A stretch of 64,000 nucleotides of DNA from Hyphomicrobiales bacterium (lineage in GTDB: Bacteria; Pseudomonadota; Alphaproteobacteria; Rhizobiales; Aestuariivirgaceae), in contig JACPNZ010000042.1 of the NCBI GenBank assembly GCA_016185245.1, positions 1 through 64,000 on the forward strand, given 5' to 3'. The notes beneath the pieces were generated by a model that worked only from the letters and a program-made list of their open reading frames with translations, was not told the DNA's origin and ran no database searches. Positions 963-20,505 of the stretch are shown here, one piece after another (position 1 is the first letter of the stretch; each line of letters opens with the position of its first letter). Position numbers and translations under genes: made by a program.

Positions 963-2147
963 ATGGCCAGTTCGCACAATGGAGTTGTCGTCGTTTCCGC
1001 GGCGCGCACACCAGTGGGTTCCTTCAATGGATCGCTGTCGTCTGTCCCGGCCTCCTACCTCGGCACCGTGGCGCTGAAGGCGGCCATGGCGAGAGCCATG
1101 GTCGAAGCGGCCGAAGTCGACGAGGTGATCCTCGGCCAGGTGCTCGCCGCCGGCCAGGGCCAGAACCCGGCCCGCCAGGCCGCCGTCAATGCCGGCATTC
1201 CGGTGGGTTCGCCCGCCTGGGGCGTGAACCAGCTGTGCGGCTCGGGGCTGCGGGCGGTAGCCCTCGGCATGCAGCAGATCGTCAATGGCGACGCCAAAAT
1301 CGTCGCCACCGGCGGCCAGGAATCGATGAGCAAGGCGCCCCATGTGGCGCATCTTCGCGATGGCGTGAAGATGGGCGACTGGTCGCTGGTCGACACCATG
1401 ATCAAGGACGGGTTGTGGGATGCCTTCAACGGCTACCACATGGGTGCGACCGCCGAGAACGTGGCCAAGCAGTGGCAAATCACCCGCGACACCCAGGACG
1501 CCTTTGCGGTTGCTTCCCAGAACAAGGCGGAGAAAGCACAAGGTGCTGGCCGCTTCAAGGACGAGATCGTCCCCGTGACCATCGCCACCCGCAAGGGCGA
1601 CGTGGTGGTGGCCGACGACGAATACATCAAGAAGGGTGTCACCCTCGACCAGGTCGGCAAGCTCAAGCCCGCCTTCGCCAAGGATGGCTCGGTGACCGCC
1701 GCCAATGCGTCCGGCATCAATGACGGTGCCGCCGCGGTCATTTTGATGAGCGCCAAGGAAGCCGAAAAACGCGGGCTGACGCCGCTCGCCCGCATCGCCT
1801 CGTGGGCAAGTGTCGGGGTCGATCCGGCGATCATGGGCTCGGGTCCGATCCCGGCCTCGCGCGCCGCCCTCACCAAGGCCGGCTGGAAGGTCGAGAACCT
1901 CGATCTGGTGGAGGCCAACGAGGCCTTCGCCGCCCAGGCCTGCGCCGTCAACAAGGACATGGGCTGGAACCCCGACATCGTCAACGTCAACGGCGGTGCC
2001 ATCGCCATCGGTCATCCGATCGGTGCTTCCGGCGCAAGGGTGCTGACCACGCTCTTGCACGAGATGCAGAAGCGCAACGCCAAGAAGGGTCTCGCCACCC
2101 TGTGTATCGGTGGCGGTATGGGCATCGCCATGTGCGTCGAACGTTAA
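963..2147 (+). CDS. phaA: Acetyl-CoA acetyltransferase (beta-ketothiolase) PhaA
   Basis: A 394-residue thiolase that condenses two acetyl-CoA into acetoacetyl-CoA, the first step of polyhydroxybutyrate synthesis. The nucleophilic cysteine lies in NQLCGSGLRAV (Cys92), the catalytic histidine in GGAIAIGHPIGASGAR, and the proton-relay cysteine in LCIGGGMGIAMC (about residue 381), all intact. Length is standard for biosynthetic thiolases. A strong GAAGGAGG Shine-Dalgarno precedes the ATG. It is followed 24 nt later by phaB in the same direction, forming a phaAB operon opposite phaR. The same enzyme can feed the ethylmalonyl-CoA pathway, genes of which lie near 45 kb. Confidence 0.97.
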   Translation: MASSHNGVVVVSAARTPVGSFNGSLSSVPASYLGTVALKAAMARAMVEAAEVDEVILGQVLAAGQGQNPARQAAVNAGIPVGSPAWGVNQLCGSGLRAVALGMQQIVNGDAKIVATGGQESMSKAPHVAHLRDGVKMGDWSLVDTMIKDGLWDAFNGYHMGATAENVAKQWQITRDTQDAFAVASQNKAEKAQGAGRFKDEIVPVTIATRKGDVVVADDEYIKKGVTLDQVGKLKPAFAKDGSVTAANASGINDGAAAVILMSAKEAEKRGLTPLARIASWASVGVDPAIMGSGPIPASRAALTKAGWKVENLDLVEANEAFAAQACAVNKDMGWNPDIVNVNGGAIAIGHPIGASGARVLTTLLHEMQKRNAKKGLATLCIGGGMGIAMCVER

Positions 2148-2171
2148 AACGACAGATCGGGAGACACCAGA

Positions 2172-2897
2172 ATGGCACGTGTTGCAGTGGTGACCGGCGG
2201 CAGCCGCGGCATCGGAGCGGCGATCTCGAAGGCCCTGAAGGCTTCGGGCTACAAGGTCGCCGCCATCTATGCCGGCAATGACGAGGCCGCCGCCAAGTTC
2301 AAGGCCGAGACCGGCATTCCGGTCTACAAGTGGGATGTCTCCAACTACGAGGCCTGCATCGCTGGTCTCAAGCAGGTCGAAGCCGATCTCGGTCCCGTCG
2401 AAGTGCTGGTCAACAATGCCGGCATTACCCGCGACGGCATGTTCCACAAGATGACGGTGGAGCAATGGTATGCGGTCATCAACACCAATCTCAATTCGCT
2501 GTTCAACATGTGCCGGCCGGTGATCGAGGGCATGCGAGCCAGGAAATTCGGGCGAATCGTCAATATCTCCTCGATCAACGGCCAGAAGGGCCAGATGGGG
2601 CAGACGAATTATTCCGCCTCCAAGGCCGGCGACATCGGCTTCACCAAGGCACTGGCCCAGGAGAGTGCCAAGTCCGGCATCACCGTCAACGTCATCTGCC
2701 CGGGCTACATCGCCACCGAAATGGTCATGGCGGTGCCCCTGGAGGTGCGGGAAAAGAACATCATTCCGCAGATCGCCGTGGGCCGCCTGGGCGAGCCCGA
2801 GGAAATCGCCCGCTGCGTGGTGTTTCTGGCCAGCGACGAGGCGGGCTTCATCACCGGCTCGACGCTCTCGGCCAATGGCGGCCAGTACATGGCGTGA
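2172..2897 (+). CDS. phaB: Acetoacetyl-CoA reductase PhaB
   Basis: A 241-residue short-chain dehydrogenase that reduces acetoacetyl-CoA to (R)-3-hydroxybutyryl-CoA with NADPH, supplying PHA synthase. The Rossmann motif TGGSRGIG sits at residues 8-15, NNAG near residue 80, and the catalytic Ser-Tyr-Lys set in ISSINGQKGQMGQTNYSASK. The C-terminal GGQYMA ending is typical of PhaB. It is the second gene of the phaAB operon. PHA synthase phaC is not in the window, as is usual in rhizobia where phaC is unlinked. Confidence 0.96.
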   Translation: MARVAVVTGGSRGIGAAISKALKASGYKVAAIYAGNDEAAAKFKAETGIPVYKWDVSNYEACIAGLKQVEADLGPVEVLVNNAGITRDGMFHKMTVEQWYAVINTNLNSLFNMCRPVIEGMRARKFGRIVNISSINGQKGQMGQTNYSASKAGDIGFTKALAQESAKSGITVNVICPGYIATEMVMAVPLEVREKNIIPQIAVGRLGEPEEIARCVVFLASDEAGFITGSTLSANGGQYMA

Positions 2898-2907
2898 GGA
2901 AGCCACC

Positions 2908-2957
2908 AATAGCGAATGGTTGCATTCTATTCGCCATTCGCTATTCGCTATTCGCCG
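2908..2957. repeat. CTATTCGC-type palindromic intergenic repeat
   Basis: Between phaB and ccmA, AATAGCGAATGG (2908-2919) is perfectly complementary to CCATTCGCTATT (2934-2945), a 12-bp stem with a 14-nt loop. It continues into further copies of the octamer CTATTCGC up to base 2956. This simple repeat occupies the place of the ccmA ribosome-binding site. Confidence 0.6.
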
Positions 2958-3557
2958 ATGCAGATCATCGGCCAGGATCTCGTTTGCGAACGCGGCGGAC
3001 GCACCGTGTTTCATGATGTGAGCTTCATGGTGAACCGCCATGAGCTTCTGCAACTCACCGGCCCCAACGGCTCGGGCAAGTCGTCGCTGCTTCGTATGAT
3101 CGCCGGGCTCAACGATCCGGCGGCGGGAACGCTCAACCTCGATGGCGGCCATGCCGACCTCACGATCGGCCAGCAGGCCCATCTGATCGCCCACCAGGAG
3201 GCGGTGAAGCTGGCCCTGACGGTCGCCGAGAACCTCGCCTTCTGGGCCGGCTTCCTCGGCGGCGGCGATGTCGGCAACGCCCTTGCCGCTCTCGATCTCA
3301 CCCGGCTCGCCCACTACCCGGCAGGACTTCTCTCGGCCGGCCAGAAGCGCCGCCTATCGCTCGCCCGCCTGGTGCTGGTGCCGCGGCTCCTGTGGTTGCT
3401 CGACGAACCGACCGTGGGACTCGATACCGCTTCGCAGCAGCGCCTTGCCGGCATGATGACCGAGCATCTGGCGAAGGGCGGCATGATCATCGCCGCCACC
3501 CATGTGGCCCTCGGCCTCGAACCGGCCCGCCGTCTCGATCTGGGGCCACGGGCATGA
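2958..3557 (+). CDS. ccmA: Heme exporter ATP-binding protein CcmA
   Basis: A 199-residue ABC ATPase of the cytochrome c maturation machinery. With CcmB it forms the transporter that uses ATP to release heme-loaded CcmE from CcmC in the inner membrane. Walker A is GPNGSGKSS (residues 35-43), the signature LSAGQKRRLSLAR, and Walker B LLWLLDEP. The ATG at 2958 is preferred over an in-frame ATG at 2916, because the extra 14 residues would be encoded by the CTATTCGC repeat. No clear Shine-Dalgarno precedes it. The stop overlaps the ccmB start (ATGA). Confidence 0.93.
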   Translation: MQIIGQDLVCERGGRTVFHDVSFMVNRHELLQLTGPNGSGKSSLLRMIAGLNDPAAGTLNLDGGHADLTIGQQAHLIAHQEAVKLALTVAENLAFWAGFLGGGDVGNALAALDLTRLAHYPAGLLSAGQKRRLSLARLVLVPRLLWLLDEPTVGLDTASQQRLAGMMTEHLAKGGMIIAATHVALGLEPARRLDLGPRA

Positions 3558-13415: not shown

Positions 13416-15572
13416 TTACTCGCCCTGGGCGGCGGCTTCCGTCTGGGCTTCCGCCGCCTGCTTCTTCGACAGGTCTTCGCCGGTGGCCTGATCGACCTGC
13501 TTCATCGACAGCCGCACCTTGCCGCGGTTGTCGAAGCCCAAGAGCTTCACCTTGACGATGTCGCCCTCGTTGACCACGTCGCTGACTTTGTTAACCCGGC
13601 GGGGGGCCAGTTCCGAGACATGGACCAACCCGTCCTTGGCGCCGAAGAAGTTGACGAAGGCGCCGAAGTCGACGACCTTGACCACCTTGCCCTCGTAGAT
13701 TTCGCCAAGCTCGGGCTCGGAGACGATGCCCTTGATCCATTTGAGCGCCGCGGCGATCGCCGTCCCTGAGGCCGAGGCGATCTTCACCGTGCCGTCGTCC
13801 TGGATGTCGATCTTGGCGCCGGTCTTCTCGACGATCTCGCGGATCACCTTGCCGCCGGTGCCGATTACTTCGCGGATCTTGTCGGTCGGGATCTTGATCG
13901 TCTCGATGCGCGGGGCGTGCTCGCCGAGGCTGGTTCGCGACTTGTCGAGTGCCTCCGCCATCTTGCCGAGAATGTGCATGCGGCCGTCCTTGGCCTGCCA
14001 CAGGGCGACCTTCATGATCTCCTCGGTGATGCCGGTGATCTTGATGTCCATCTGCAGCGAAGTCACACCCTCGGAGGTTCCGGCCACCTTGAAGTCCATG
14101 TCGCCGAGGTGGTCCTCGTCGCCGAGGATATCGGAAAGGACGGCGAAGCGCTCACCCTCCTTGATCAGCCCCATGGCGATGCCGGCGCAGGGCGCCTTCA
14201 ACGGCACGCCCGCATCCATCAGGGAGAGCGACGAGCCACACACCGTGGCCATCGACGAGGAGCCGTTCGATTCGGTGATCTCCGAGACGACGCGGATGGT
14301 GTAGGGAAACTGGTCGGCCGGCGGCAGCAGCGGATGGATGGCCCGCCAGGCGAGCTTGCCGTGGCCGATTTCGCGGCGCCCGGTTGCTCCCATGCGGCCG
14401 GTTTCGCCGACCGAGAAGGGCGGGAAGTTGTAGTGCAGCAGGAAAGTTCCCTTGGTGGTGCCGTCGAGGGAGTCGATATACTGCTCGTCCTCGCCGGTGC
14501 CCAGGGTGGTGACCACCAGGGCCTGGGTCTCGCCGCGGGTGAACAGGGCCGAGCCGTGGGTGCGCGGCAGAACGCTCGCTTCCGCCACGATCATGCGCAC
14601 CGTCTTGGTGTCGCGGCCGTCGATGCGCAGACCGGTATCGAGGATCGAATTGCGCACCACATCCTTTTCGAGATGCTTGAACACCTCGTTGATCTTGGCC
14701 GGCGTCGGCGCTTCGGGCTTGTCGGCAACCACAAGTGCTGCCAGCACCTTGTCCTTGGCCTTGGCCACCGCCTCGTGGCGGGCTTCCTTGGTGGGGATGG
14801 CATAGCCGGTGCGGACGTCCGCCTCGGCAATGGCCTGCACCTTGGCGTAGAGGGCATCATCGTCGGGCGGCGTGAAGTCGCGGGGCGGCCTCGCCGAACG
14901 CTCGGCCAGGCGGATGATCGCCTCAATGACCGGCTGGAAGCCGCGGTGGCCGAACATCACGGCCCCCAGCATGATTTCCTCCGAGAGCTCCTTGGCTTCC
15001 GATTCGACCATCAGCACCGCATCCTGGGTACCGGCGACAACGAGATCAAGCGCCGAGAGCTTCTGCTGCTCGATCGTAGGGTTGAGAACGTATTCGCCGT
15101 CGATAAAGCCGACCCGCGCCGCTCCGACCGGTCCCATGAAGGGGATGCCCGAGAGGGTGAGCGCCGCCGAGGAGGCGACCAGCGCCAGGATGTCGGTGTC
15201 ATTTTCGAGGTCATAGGAGAGCACCGTGGCGATCACCTGGGTCTCGTTGCGAAAACCCTGGGGGAACAACGGCCGGATCGGCCGGTCGATGAGGCGCGAG
15301 ATCAGCGTCTCGCGCTCGGTGGGCCGGCCTTCGCGCTTGAAATAGCCGCCGGGAATCTTGCCGGCCGCATAGGTTTTTTCCTGGTAGTTGACGGTCAGCG
15401 GAAAGAAGTCGATGCCGGGCTTGGCGGCGCGTTCGGCAACGGCGGTGGCGAGCACCGTGGTTTCGCCAATGGCGGCCAGAACCGCTCCATCGGCCTGTCT
15501 TGCCAAGCGGCCGGTTTCAAGGCGCAGCTTCTGCCCGCCCCATTCGATTTCTTCGACGTCGATATTGAACAT
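13416..15572 (-). CDS. pnp: Polyribonucleotide nucleotidyltransferase (PNPase)
   Basis: A 718-residue 3'-5' phosphorolytic exoribonuclease and core RNA degradosome enzyme. Order of domains: first RNase PH domain (about 10-140), alpha-helical linker, second catalytic RNase PH domain with [20 protein letters not shown] domain with [15 protein letters not shown] (about 560-575), and C-terminal S1 domain with [17 protein letters not shown]. The ATG at 15572 ([13 protein letters not shown]) has GAAGAGGA upstream. It is the last gene of the rimP-nusA-infB-rpsO-pnp block. Confidence 0.97.
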
Positions 15573-15685
15573 GTGATGATCCTCTTCGCCCTTCGCCGCC
15601 GCTTGAATCGCGTCACCACACCTGGACGGCATCCCCTTTGGGCTTGTCGAAACCCGGCCCCATTGCCGGACTCCGTCGCGGGGAC

Positions 15686-15713
15686 GCGGGCGGCAATTCG
15701 GTGATCCGCCCGC
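15686..15713 (-). promoter_or_regulatory. Stem-loop in the rpsO-pnp spacer
   Basis: GCGGGCGG (15686-15693) and CCGCCCGC (15706-15713) form a perfect 8-bp stem with a 12-nt loop, about 20 bases after the rpsO stop and 114 bases before pnp. There is no U-tract, so it is unlikely to be a terminator. In E. coli a stem in this position is cut by RNase III during pnp autoregulation; a similar role here is inferred. Confidence 0.5.
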
Positions 15714-15732
15714 TCATGCTTTGCGTGTCCGC

Positions 15733-16002
15733 CTACCGGCGGATATCGAGACGCTTGATCAGCGCCTGGTAGCGCGCCTCGTCCTTCGACTTGAGATAGT
15801 CGAGAAGCGTACGGCGCGTGCTCACCATGGTGAGCAGCCCACGACGGGAATGATTGTCCTTCTTATGGGTCTTGAAGTGGTCGGTCAGGCCATTGATGCG
15901 TTCCGTCAGGATCGCGACCTGAACTTCCGGCGAGCCTGTGTCGCCGGCCTTGGTGGCATATTCCTTCACGAGCGCGTTCTTGCGCTCCGCAGTCATCGTC
16001 AT
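15733..16002 (-). CDS. rpsO: 30S ribosomal protein S15
   Basis: An 89-residue primary 16S rRNA-binding protein of the small-subunit platform. The family motifs [28 protein letters not shown] and RRTLLDYLK are all present, and the protein ends LIKRLDIRR. The ATG at 16002 gives the canonical 89 residues; an upstream in-frame start would add five atypical residues. It sits between truB and pnp, the order conserved across Proteobacteria. Confidence 0.97.
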
Positions 16003-16023
16003 TCGGCCATCTCCCAAACGGGG

Positions 16024-16938
16024 TTACAGGTTAAACAGACGCTTCGGCTTGAGCGTTCCCCCGCTGATGCTGGCGAGGCCCAAGGGCTTTCCCGCCCAAC
16101 TGGCCAGAACCGCATCGTGTGCACCGGGAGCGTTCGCGCCTCCGAGCAGGACATCTTGTCCCTGCCTCAGGCGTTGGGCTTGATCGTCGTCCAAGGCCAG
16201 TGCCGGGATGCCGTCCAGCACGGTCTCAATCGGGAGCAGAGCCCCTTCCATGGCGTTGCCGCCGGCGGCCTTATGGCGCAACTCCTCGATCATTGCCAGT
16301 GAAATCATGTGGTCCTCGGTGAACGGGCCTACGGCGGTGCGGCGGAGCGCCGTCACATGGCCGAGGCAGGATAGCCGCCGCCCCAGGTCGCGGGCGAGCG
16401 AGCGCACATAGGTGCCCTTGCCGCACACGACCTCGAAATCGGCATGATCGGGGTCCGCGATGGCTATAAGGCGCAATTTCTCGATCGAGACGGGCCGCGG
16501 CGGAAGCACCACCGCCTGCCCGGCGCGAGCTAGGTCATAGGCCCGCTCGCCGGCCAGCTTGATCGCCGAATAGGCCGGCGGCGCCTGGAGAATTTCACCT
16601 TCGAAGCAGGATAGTATCGACTCGATATCGTTTTTGGATGGACGGGCAGCAGAGCTGCGCGTCACCTCGCCTTCCAGATCGTCGGTGGCACGCTCCTCGC
16701 CCCATTTGACGGTGAAGCGATAGGTTTTCCGGCCATCCATGGCATAAGAGACGGTCTTGGTCGCCTCGCCGAGAGCGATCGGCAACAGCCCGGTGGCGAG
16801 GGGATCGAGAGTTCCGCCATGGCCCGCCTTGTCGGCGTCGAACAGCCGGCGGATTTTCCCCACCGCCTGGGTCGAGGTCATACCCAGCGGCTTGTCCAAT
16901 GCGACCCAGCCGTGGACGGGATTGCCGCGCCGTTTCAG
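16024..16938 (-). CDS. truB: tRNA pseudouridine(55) synthase TruB
   Basis: Modifies U55 in the T-loop of tRNAs. The catalytic aspartate is in GHGGTLDPLATGLLPI, with RTYRFTVKWG-type (KTYRFTVKWG) and APPAYSAIK motifs behind it. The first standard start codon, TTG at 16899, lies inside the conserved N-terminal segment HGWVALDKPLGM and would remove about 13 residues that align with other TruB proteins. The only plausible start upstream is CTG at 16938, seven bases after CGGAGG and overlapping the stop codon of the toxin gene (CTGA). I therefore give the 304-residue form; the function is secure, the start is inferred. Confidence 0.9.
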   Translation of the reverse strand: MKRRGNPVHGWVALDKPLGMTSTQAVGKIRRLFDADKAGHGGTLDPLATGLLPIALGEATKTVSYAMDGRKTYRFTVKWGEERATDDLEGEVTRSSAARPSKNDIESILSCFEGEILQAPPAYSAIKLAGERAYDLARAGQAVVLPPRPVSIEKLRLIAIADPDHADFEVVCGKGTYVRSLARDLGRRLSCLGHVTALRRTAVGPFTEDHMISLAMIEELRHKAAGGNAMEGALLPIETVLDGIPALALDDDQAQRLRQGQDVLLGGANAPGAHDAVLASWAGKPLGLASISGGTLKPKRLFNL

Positions 16939-17219
16939 AACAGTTCCTCCGGGTCACGGCGCTGATCGAATACCGCAAATATCTCGATATCGTTCGCCGT
17001 GACCTTGTAGGGCAGCACATAGGGCAGGCCGGTGATCTGCAGCAGGCGAACGCCGGCCCTGTCCGATGCCTGCCCGATATTCGGATATTGCTCGACGCGG
17101 CGTGTCGCGGCGAGGATTCTGGCGACGACGTGGTCGGCGGCCTGAGGGTCGCGTCTCGAAATGTAGCTGCGGATCTGCTTCAATTCGCGGCGCGCCCGCA
17201 TCGACCAACGCAGCTTCAT
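16935..17219 (-). CDS. ParE/RelE-superfamily toxin
   Basis: A 94-residue basic protein with the type II toxin fold pattern of ParE: SMRARRELKQIRSYI at the start, DPQAADHVVARILAATRRV in the helical hairpin, PNIGQ, and the C-terminal strands YVLPYKVTANDIEIFAVF ending QRRDPEEL. ParE toxins poison gyrase; RelE relatives cut mRNA. The Asp-Pro-Gln-Ala-Ala and Pro-Asn-Ile-Gly elements favour ParE. The start overlaps the antitoxin stop by four bases, the classic order. Its own stop overlaps the apparent start of truB, so the pair is embedded in an essential operon. Confidence 0.85.
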   Translation of the reverse strand: MKLRWSMRARRELKQIRSYISRRDPQAADHVVARILAATRRVEQYPNIGQASDRAGVRLLQITGLPYVLPYKVTANDIEIFAVFDQRRDPEELF

Positions 17220-17503
17220 TTCTTCTTCTTGAAAATATCGGGCTCAGGGGGCGGCAATTCATCTGGCTTTCCCCACGATAAGAGCCATGCCGACATTCTT
17301 TCGTGGGAAATCCACTCGCCGCTCTCGTCGGCTTCCTTCACCGCCGCATCGATTTCCCGGACCAGCCAAGCCTGGCGCCTGACATAGTCTTCCAGCGCCT
17401 CGGTCACCAGGAAGGCCTTGGAACGGCGGGTGGCTTCGGCAAGGGCTTCAAGCTCTTCACCCAGCTTTTCCGGAATTCGGGCGGAAATCATCGTCTTGAC
17501 CAT
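17216..17503 (-). CDS. Ribbon-helix-helix antitoxin (ParD/CopG-like)
   Basis: A 95-residue antitoxin: the N-terminal ribbon-helix-helix DNA-binding domain (MISARIPEKLGEELEALAEA, then SKAFLVTEAL) is followed by a charged tail that should wrap the toxin. The ATG at 17503 is preferred over 17521 because CAGGTG lies five bases upstream, and 17521 abuts the operator palindrome. The protein is expected to repress its own promoter together with the toxin. Confidence 0.85.
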   Translation of the reverse strand: MVKTMISARIPEKLGEELEALAEATRRSKAFLVTEALEDYVRRQAWLVREIDAAVKEADESGEWISHERMSAWLLSWGKPDELPPPEPDIFKKKK

Positions 17504-17522
17504 GACAGCACCTGTTTTCATG

Positions 17523-17539
17523 TGATTACAATGTAATCA
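17523..17539 (-). promoter_or_regulatory. Palindromic operator of the toxin-antitoxin pair
   Basis: TGATTAC (17523-17529) and GTAATCA (17533-17539) flank a 3-nt centre, immediately upstream of the antitoxin. Inside it, TGTAAT on the minus strand resembles a -10 box. TGATTAC/GTAATCA palindromes are typical of ribbon-helix-helix autorepressors, so binding here would block the module's own promoter. Confidence 0.7.
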
Positions 17540-17559
17540 TCGGTGCCGATTTGTCCAGC

Positions 17560-17946
17560 TCAATCCTCGTGCTTTAAATCCCGCGCCACTTCCGGCCGGT
17601 GCAAGAGCTCGTCGATCTTGCTGGCGTAGTCGAGGGCCGTGTCGATCCGATAGCGGACCTCGGGCATGAAGCGGAGATCGACCTTCCGGGCCAGAAGCCC
17701 GCGAATGTATTTCTTGTTGCGGTCGATCGCCTTGAGCGCCTTGTCATCGGCCCCCTGCACCAGGGTGCGGACGAAGGCGGTGGCAATCTTGAGATCGGGC
17801 GAGACCTGCACCTCGTGCACCGAGACGGCCAGGCGTTCCAGTTCCGGATCGCCGGTCTCGCCGCGCATGAAGATGTCGGCGAGCGCGTGGCGGATCAGTT
17901 CGCCGGCCCGCAGCTGGCGCTGGGAGGGACCTTTGGCCGTGACCAT
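17560..17946 (-). CDS. rbfA: 30S ribosome-binding factor RbfA
   Basis: A 128-residue KH-like late 30S assembly factor. The family pattern is visible: SQRQLRAGELIRHALADI at the N-terminus, VSVHEVQVSPDLKIATAFV in the middle and KYIRGLLARKVDLRFMPEVRYRID. It starts six bases after the infB stop. Downstream, truB would normally be next, but the toxin-antitoxin pair has been inserted. Confidence 0.96.
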   Translation of the reverse strand: MVTAKGPSQRQLRAGELIRHALADIFMRGETGDPELERLAVSVHEVQVSPDLKIATAFVRTLVQGADDKALKAIDRNKKYIRGLLARKVDLRFMPEVRYRIDTALDYASKIDELLHRPEVARDLKHED

Positions 17947-17952
17947 CGCCGA

Positions 17953-20505
17953 TCAATCCAGCTTGCGCTGGATCTTCTCCACCCGGAAGCACTCGATCAC
18001 GTCGCCGGCCCGCATGTCCTGGTAGTTCTCGAAGGCCATGCCGCATTCCTGGCCGACCTGGACCTCTTTCACCTCGTCCTTGAAGCGCTTGAGAGTCGAC
18101 AGCGTGCCTTCGTGGACCACCACATTGTCGCGAATGAGCCGCACCCTGGCGCCGCGCTGCACCGAGCCTTCGGTCACCTGGCAGCCAGCCACCTTGCCGA
18201 CCTTGGTGATATTGAAGATCTCGAGAATCTTGGCGTTGCCGAGGAAGGTTTCGCGCAGTTCCGGCGCGAGCTTGCCCGACATCGCCGCCTTGATGTCATC
18301 GACCAGGTCGTAAATGATGTTGTAGTAGCGGACTTCGATGCCGGCCCGCTCGGCCGCGTCGCGCGCCTGGCCCGAGGCACGGACGTTGAAGCCCAGCACC
18401 ACCGCACCCGAGGCGGTGGCAAGACCGATGTCGCTCTCGTTGATGCCGCCCACCGCGTAGTGAACGACACGGCTGCGGATCTCGGCGTTGCCGATCTTTT
18501 CCAGCGCCTGGACGATCGCTTCGGCCGAACCCTGCACATCGGCCTTGACCAGGATCGGGAACTCCTTGACGTTCCCCTCCTTCATCTGCGCCATCATCTG
18601 CTCAAGCGACGAGCGGCCCGAGGAGGTTCCACGAGTGTCGCGGCGCTTCCTCTCGCGGTAGTCGGTGACCTCGCGGGCCCGGGCTTCGTTCGGAACCACG
18701 TCGAATTGGTCGCCGGCTTCCGGCGCCGAATTGAGACCCAGCACCTCGACCGGCGCCGAGGGACCGGCTTCCTTCACCTGCTCGCCCTTGTCGTCGATCA
18801 GCGCCCTGACCCGGCCCCAGGCCGAACCGGCCACAAAGATATCGCCGAGCCGCAGCGTGCCGCGCTGCACCAGCACTGTCGCCACAGGGCCCCGGCCCTT
18901 GTCGAGCTGGGCTTCGACCACCATGCCGCCCGCCTCGCGGTTGGGATTGGCCTTGAGGTCGAGCACTTCCGCCTGCAGCAGAATGGTATCGAGCAGCTTG
19001 TCGAGATTGGTGCCCTTCAGCGCCGAGACTTCGACATCGAGGGTGTCGCCGCCCATGCTTTCGACCACGATCTCGTGCTGCAGAAGCTCGCGCCGCACCC
19101 GGTTGGCATCGGCCGCCGGCTTGTCGATTTTGTTGATCGCCACGATGATCGGCACTTGCGCCGCGCGGGCATGATTGATCGCTTCCACCGTCTGCGGCAT
19201 GACGCCGTCGTCGGCGGCGACCACCAGGACCACGATGTCGGTGGCCTTGGCGCCGCGGGCCCGCATCGACGTGAAGGCCTCGTGGCCCGGCGTGTCGATG
19301 AAGGTGATGAGGCCGTTCTTGGTCAGAACCTGATAGGCGCCGATGTGCTGGGTGATGCCGCCGGCTTCGCCCGAGACCACATTGGTCTTGCGGATGGCGT
19401 CGAGCAGCGAGGTCTTGCCGTGGTCGACATGGCCCATGATGGTGACGACCGGCGGCCGGCTGCGCAGCATCTCCGCCGTGTCGGTTTCGCCGGCCAGGCC
19501 CTCGATCACGTCGGATTCGGAGACGCGCCTGACCTTGTGGCCCATCTCCTCGGCGATCAGCTGAGCGGTATCGGCATCGATCACGTCGTTGATCGTATGC
19601 ATGTCGCCCTGCTTCATCAGAAACTTGATGATGTCGACGGCGCGCTCGGCCATGCGGTTGGCGAGTTCCTGGATGGTGATCGCCTCGGGCACGACAATCT
19701 CGCGGGCCACCTTCTCGGTCGGCATCTGGAAGCCCTGGGCCTGCTTCTTCAGGCGCTCGGTGCGGCGGCGGAAAGCGGCGACCGACCGGCTGCGTTCGCT
19801 CTCGTCGTCGGAGAGCGCATTGGCGAGCGTCAGCTTGCCGCGGCGCTTGTCGACATCGGCCTTGGCGCGGGTGGGAGCGGGAATCTTGACGCCGCTCTTC
19901 AGGCGGATGGTCTTGCCCGCACTTTCTTCTTCCTCCTCGGCCTTGACGGCCTTCGCCGTAAGGGTGGGAGCGGCGGTCTTGGGAGCGAGCTTCTTGGCGG
20001 CTTCCTCGGCCTTGCGCTTGCCTTCCTCCTCGACCCGGTGGCGGGCATCGTCCTCGGCCTTGCGCTTGGCGGCGGCCTCGCGCTCGCGGTGCTCCTGTTC
20101 CTCGTGATCCTGGCGGCGGCGGGCTTCGACCTCGTGACGCTTGCGCTCCTCGGCCTCGCGCACCCGGGAATCGGCAAGGGCCCGGTCGCGGGCTTCCTTC
20201 TCTTCCGGCGACAGGGTGCGCAGCACCACGCCAGACCGGCCGGCCGGAGGGGTGGCGGCACGAGCCTGGCTCCCCGCCGGGACTGCAACCTTGGGCTGCA
20301 CATGGAACTGAGACTTGGCCTCGGGGGCGGCCGGCTTGTCGTCGCCCATGCGCTTGCGCCGGGTTTCGACCACCACCGTCTTGGTGCGGCCATGGGCGAA
20401 GCTCTGCTTAACCTTGCTCTGTTCGACCGACGGCCGTTTCAGGGTCAGGGTACCGCCGCCCCGCTGGGCTTCGGACTTTCGGTCGTTATCGTTGGTATCG
20501 CTCAT
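17953..20505 (-). CDS. infB: Translation initiation factor IF-2
   Basis: An 850-residue GTPase that places initiator tRNA on the 30S subunit. A long charged Ala/Lys/Glu/Arg-rich N-terminal region (about 1-250) contains the IF2-N segment, followed by the G domain with [10 protein letters not shown] (G1), DTPGHEAF (G3) and NKIDKP (G4), then the beta-barrel and C-terminal fMet-tRNA-binding domains. The ATG at 20505 overlaps the stop of the YlxR gene (ATGA). Confidence 0.98.

Follow-up and report, generated by a model that had tools for sequence, protein, structure and literature searches.

Why toxin-antitoxin (TA) pairs persist on chromosomes is the subject of a long debate. Among solved structures, the best relative of the profile of the antitoxin described here is 7etr_A (6.7e-9), and the relatives of its toxin are 5cw7/5czf (the best), 5ceg, 6xrw, and 7etr_C, the best ones being named ParE. 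We take 7etr to be ParESO-CopASO of the Shewanella oneidensis prophage CP4So. Like the pair in our window, that is, the whole 64,000-nt stretch of DNA that was analyzed, ParESO-CopASO joins a CopG/RHH antitoxin to a ParE-fold toxin. The chains 5cw7/5czf and 5ceg are known here as solved structures, and 5ceg_B shares with the window toxin a D-x-R-R-D C-terminal tail that ends in LF. Translationally coupled overlapping genes, with ATGA, GTGA, or TGATG junctions, are a known class, and the same form of overlap is found at toxin-truB, at toxin-moeB, and at the pair-less junctions of relatives. Unlike usual coupled genes, however, the upstream partner here, a toxin, belongs to an inserted pair that carries a putative operator of its own, and truB apparently starts with CTG. 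As for ParESO-CopASO, the accessible part of PMC8706911 describes an antitoxin, CopASO, that binds inverted repeats in its own promoter and a toxicity of ParESO that requires the C-terminal residue His91. The same part describes features that the window pair does not share, namely a prophage location and an operator of GTANTAC repeats, and it mentions no coupling to a housekeeping gene, whereas the window toxin is apparently coupled to truB and has Asp in its tail region as against the required His91 of ParESO. Our full-text literature search, with most subscription papers outside its reach, found no report of a TA pair in the operons discussed below; the accessible part of PMC8522696 brings up infB only for E. 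coli tRNA.

The host genome (G000; 3.5 Mb, 58 contigs, 97% complete) carries an RHH antitoxin and a ParE-family toxin at 16935-17521 on the minus strand, flanked by rbfA and truB. The minus-strand gene order is infB, rbfA, antitoxin, toxin, truB, rpsO, and pnp, with infB and pnp named by inspection. Upstream lies rbfA (17560-17946, minus strand), which matched Pfam RBFA at 1.5e-25 and the NCBIfam RbfA equivalog. Downstream, truB (16024-16938, minus strand; Pfam TruB_N, 1.5e-51) was the sole truB match found in the genome, and it is followed by rpsO (15733-16017, minus strand, as the ORF is listed, with a first TTG and then an ATG; family match) and pnp. The RHH (CopG-type) antitoxin was placed at 17216-17503 within the minus-strand ORF 17216-17521; it scored 23.1 bits with RHH_1 (cut-off 20.5) and stayed below the cut-off of the NCBIfam model antitoxin_RelB_like (32.8 vs 50). 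An alternative ATG at 17521 would add six residues, but the start at 17503 is likelier because it has the better Shine-Dalgarno (SD) sequence and aligns with the start in a relative; it lies 56 nt from the rbfA stop. The 94-residue toxin (16935-17219, minus strand) matched Pfam ParE_toxin PF05016 strongly (E 1e-14, 55.3 bits, cut-off 23) and NCBIfam RelE_StbE marginally (28.3 bits vs a cut-off of 27.9), and its start shares ATGA with the antitoxin stop. The two models stand for different targets, ParE being a gyrase poison and RelE a ribosome-dependent RNase. Upon a repeat search of 16900-17650, neither terminal repeats nor a target-site duplication was found at the edges of the pair, as a transposon-type insertion would have them: direct repeats were of 8-10 nt only and had no edge-to-edge pairing, and the inverted pairs numbered 33, with 25 among the matches listed.

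The 56-nt leader of the pair (17504-17559, minus strand) holds a promoter-like site and a palindrome. The former, TGGACA-16-TACATT (17530-17557, minus strand), is sigma-70-like with a -35 element starting 2 nt past the rbfA stop, and, as a consensus match, it is the sole site of this kind on both strands of 15400-18200 (shuffle mean 0.5). Its -10 element falls within a perfect 8-1-8 palindrome, TGATTACATTGTAATCA (17523-17539), with the arms TGATTACA-T-TGTAATCA, which is likely the antitoxin operator. This putative operator is a single match in the window at no more than three mismatches (chance mean 0.03) and the only exact match across the 3.5-Mb genome, and its arm score was matched by 4 of 1000 leader shuffles. 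A palindromic operator over the promoter, by which type II TA pairs are recognized, thus appears to be present. No terminator-like site was found in 15400-18200 (shuffles gave 2.6), so none lies between the pair and truB-rpsO-pnp or between rpsO and pnp. These results bear out what the sequence-only reading had proposed for the families, the coordinates, and the palindrome, namely a complete RHH antitoxin/ParE-like toxin pair with its own operator between rbfA and truB, and they agree with its placement of a putative promoter and operator upstream of truB-rpsO-pnp. In the one relative that has a pair at the same site (G008, L047), a promoter-like site, TCGACA-17-TAAATT (9/12), occupies the equivalent place, and the leader has no inverted repeat. 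That leader is also 56 nt long, with 23 of 56 bases alike, a value reached by 103 of 20000 shuffles.

We found no ATG, GTG, or TTG at the expected start of truB, where relatives have one of these three codons. The truB frame contains an in-frame stop six codons ahead of the expected start, and none of the five codons between this stop and a CTG at 16936-16938 (minus strand) is ATG, GTG, TTG, or ATN. This CTG aligns with the starts of relatives and overlaps the toxin stop as CTGA. Six nucleotides before it lies GGAGGA (16945-16950, minus strand), an SD sequence built of toxin codons, whose pairing energy of -9.5 kcal/mol was equalled at 0 of 300 random window positions. Going beyond the sequence-only reading, truB therefore appears to start at CTG within the stop of the toxin, behind an SD made of toxin codons. 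Since the CTG overlaps the toxin stop and the strong SD lies in toxin codons, toxin and truB look coupled; a stop/start overlap and an SD inside the upstream gene, the features by which translational coupling is recognized, are both there in the sequence. In G030, the nearest genome by TruB identity (75%), rbfA and truB overlap as ATGA, and we infer that the toxin may have taken the TGA of such an ancestral ATGA for its stop, leaving truB with CTG. The earlier concern that loss of the module would put truB at risk is strengthened, as both the apparent start codon and the SD of truB lie inside the toxin gene; its description of truB as essential needs a caveat, because truB in E. coli is not known to be strictly essential. 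Both truB-site toxins (G000 and G008) end in TTCTGA before truB; the G008 CTG is shifted by one base relative to the truB frame. We considered a programmed frameshift that would carry ribosomes from toxin into truB but set it aside, because G000 and G008 would need different shifts and inspection showed no evident slippery site. In G008, rpsO is also broken by a frame change (L047 2710-2987), which suggests indel errors in this assembly; because the same contig breaks the rpsO frame, the CTG offset is untrustworthy either way.

We consider it probable that a type II pair entered the infB operon at rbfA-truB with its own promoter and operator and became coupled to truB translation. An ancestor of this species would have received the pair between rbfA and truB, with the 56-nt leader bringing the pair's own promoter and operator. 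The antitoxin, alone or with the toxin, would then repress a promoter whose transcripts pass the toxin gene and continue into truB-rpsO-pnp. Where the toxin's 3′ end meets the truB start, the CTGA overlap and the SD within the last toxin codons suggest that truB is probably made by ribosomes that finish the toxin or load on that SD site. Such coupling, together with addiction to what would be an active toxin, may keep the pair in place. Because a housekeeping gene would take both its start and its ribosome-binding site from the 3′ end of the pair, the pair would not be cleanly deletable. If true, this offers a simple and testable cause of TA persistence, without any appeal to stress or phage defence. 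Sister-genome junctions with and without the pair constitute a natural experiment.

A related pair lies between trpB and trpA in the same genome (L002, G000:C35), where all genes are on the minus strand: trpB at 1824-3095, antitoxin at 1483-1773, toxin at 1196-1486, and trpA at 365-1183. Its antitoxin is 44% identical to the truB-site antitoxin. Among the 36 genus genomes with trpA, three have a related pair at this junction, G000, G008 (L219), and G011 (L236), with trpB-trpA gaps of +643 to +655. In the other 33, the genes overlap, with an extrapolated gap, counted from the last sense codon, of -1 in 30 and -4 in three; a GTGA overlap was seen in G030 and G035. The trp-site pairs are named by similarity and position, because Pfam gave no family for either G000 protein and values below cut-off for G008 (ParE_toxin 20.7, cut-off 23; RHH_5 25, cut-off 26). 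In the trpBA tree, G011 groups elsewhere, together with G006 (98/83), and monophyly of the three hosts was rejected (p-AU 2e-41), which implies that the junction was filled repeatedly, by a single entry followed by many losses, or through transfer. The trp-site antitoxins form one group (98/82) that also contains four pairs from other places and is hence no exclusive clade, and the trp-site toxins are likewise not one clade.

Further junctions showed a similar arrangement. The pair of G003 (L264 1437-2048) separates dut from a gene of the ThiF family, here named moeB, and its toxin stop re-forms TGATG with moeB. The dut gene is present in 36 genomes; of 30 loci examined, 27 have a 1-nt overlap, among them G005 with only 55 nt available, and one has the pair, while the gaps in G006 (+857) and G007 (+133) are without a homolog of the G003 pair. 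In G021 and G036 (L256 and L267), a pair lies between an S9 peptidase gene and an isochorismatase-family gene, as seen from these two carriers. Outside the family, ruvB and a 4HBT thioesterase gene of G046 (L079) are separated by a pair whose toxin stop shares 4 nt with the following start, as seen from the carrier alone. The evidence thus points to the truB-site placement not being a one-off and to such placement recurring in the genus.

When the eight genus cases were compared, all leaders measured 48-56 nt, and in seven cases the distance between toxin stop and next start is -4 to +12 nt, with the G008 truB case counted by analogy owing to its frame offset. Four leaders contain clear palindromes (G000 truB, G011 trp, G003 dut, and G036); in the other four, no palindrome beyond shuffles was found, the numbers out of 1000 being 766 for G008 truB, 293 for G000 trp, 352 for G008 trp, and 778 for G021. 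The SD before the next gene was -9.5 kcal/mol at G000 truB, -8.3 at G000 trpA, -7.3 at G003 moeB, and -5.9 at G008 trpA; it was weak at G011 trpA (-2.7) and at the isochorismatase junctions (-4.2 and -3.9), so coupling through an SD within the toxin does not hold for all junctions. In pair-less relatives, five starts had SD values of -5.9 to -10.9. We called a pair embedded if a same-strand ORF of at least 100 residues ended no more than 80 nt upstream and another started -40 to +20 nt from the toxin stop. By this rule alone, 7 of 23 places of related antitoxins in the family qualified; L258 was dropped because an ORF on the opposite strand is longer and looks more convincing, and the two truB sites were added by hand because their starts are not the NTG that the rule requires, giving, partly by hand, 8/23 vs 0/28 class loci. 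Most related pairs are thus outside such junctions (15/23 in the family and 28/28 class loci). A Fisher test gave p 0.001, although run on 26 class loci instead of 28; we read it as a hint and not as a test, because the eight places amount to four junctions, the ORFs are uncurated, and the class-locus count is off. The best reading of these cases is that type II pairs can slot into operon junctions and may take over the translation of the next gene. Only tentatively do we extend this to a habit of the genus, in which RHH/ParE pairs would recurrently enter overlapping or tight housekeeping junctions, re-form the fit with the toxin stop, and hold the cell by addiction and by taking the translation of the next gene hostage. 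On this reading, how strongly a pair is repressed would tune the gene that follows, tying TruB, RpsO, and Pnp output to antitoxin decay.

An alternative that we regard as possible but doubtful is that of a plain tolerated insertion, in which promoter and overlap are irrelevant to truB, which would owe its transcription to the upstream operon promoter and be translated independently. Relatives carry other genes as well in their infB-rbfA and rbfA-truB gaps, and since insertions within genes would be lost, junctions are where survivors are expected. Against it stand the stop-start overlap of truB, the very strong SD in toxin codons, and the similar end-to-start fit at other junctions, and no cargo other than a TA pair was seen at trpB-trpA in 36 genomes.

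It is unlikely, in our view, that the pair is no longer an active TA system and has been kept as a translational ramp for truB. This idea draws on the toxin tail, where both truB-site toxins have Asp at a position that is His in 74 of 84 homologs. The accessible part of PMC8706911 makes His91 necessary for ParESO toxicity, but the alignment of the window toxin to the ParESO chain ends short of His91, so that Asp has no residue-level match to it. Asp is moreover found in 6 of the 84 homologs, and the tail of 5ceg_B, a solved ParE, DGRRDLNRLF, resembles the truB-site tail, Asp included; inactivity thus does not follow from Asp. Both frames are also intact at 41-48% identity, as is the palindrome in the window. 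Since this tail is unlike that of most homologs, we had also considered that it was remodelled by fusion to truB; this was dropped, as 5ceg_B has a like tail.

That truB is initiated at TTG 16899, a codon within the conserved N-terminus, with the CTG unused, seems improbable to us. CTG starts are generally weak; TTG belongs to the standard start codons and serves truB at the usual place in several relatives. Starting at 16899 would, however, cost 13 residues, including a PVHGW stretch kept in most relatives, and the SD there is -4.2 kcal/mol vs -9.5 before the CTG.

To place the pair in the genus, we compared junctions in the 34 of 37 genomes with rbfA and truB on one stretch (G011 has no truB match, and G005 and G031 lack rbfA on the stretch). 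The pair is present there in G000 and G008 alone; of the other 32 junctions, four (G007, G012, G020, and G027) carry 0.8 to 6.8 kb of other genes, and the rest are at most 192 nt. By tblastn, no homolog of the pair was found at the junction in any of 24 genomes that belong to the order's other families, including G046 (2595 nt) and G047 (669 nt) with their long rbfA-truB gaps. Among 30 named loci, the gap was readable in 24, and none of these has the pair; some of them belong to the same genomes as the outgroups. Judged by this junction comparison, the pair is an insertion and not an order-wide arrangement, in keeping with the earlier suggestion of an insertion between genes that are usually adjacent. 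That it is an old operon part across the order, as two genus members with the pair might hint, is hardly credible and already contradicted by 32/34 genus and 24/24 outgroup junctions without it. An assembly artefact is the least plausible reading of all, for although the genomes are drafts, the same arrangement occurs in two separate ones.

The insertion does not look recent, because the pair at the same site in G008 is only 41% (toxin) and 47-48% (antitoxin) identical. The two truB-site toxins are sisters in a tree of 60 toxins (100/87) and in another tree (92/84), and the antitoxins group at 92/86; in a 46-row toxin tree, the two toxins are joined by a long-branched third, the G008 trp-site toxin. 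The operon protein tree places G000 close to G008 without making them sisters, and one clade was not rejected (p-AU 0.28), which allows a single gain, with or without later losses, as well as two gains.

Other genes also occupy these gaps. Part of the genus has a glyoxalase/VOC-like gene, named by eye, between infB and rbfA (L036, L037, L038, L041, L044, L045, and L046), and the rbfA-truB gaps of L036, L038, and L041 are occupied by a gene resembling phosphoesterases in G007 and by a large related gene in G012 and G020. In G004 (L137, contig C3), a ParE-like toxin lies about 6 kb from truB and opposite to it, between genes that by eye are trmB-like and rimP-like.
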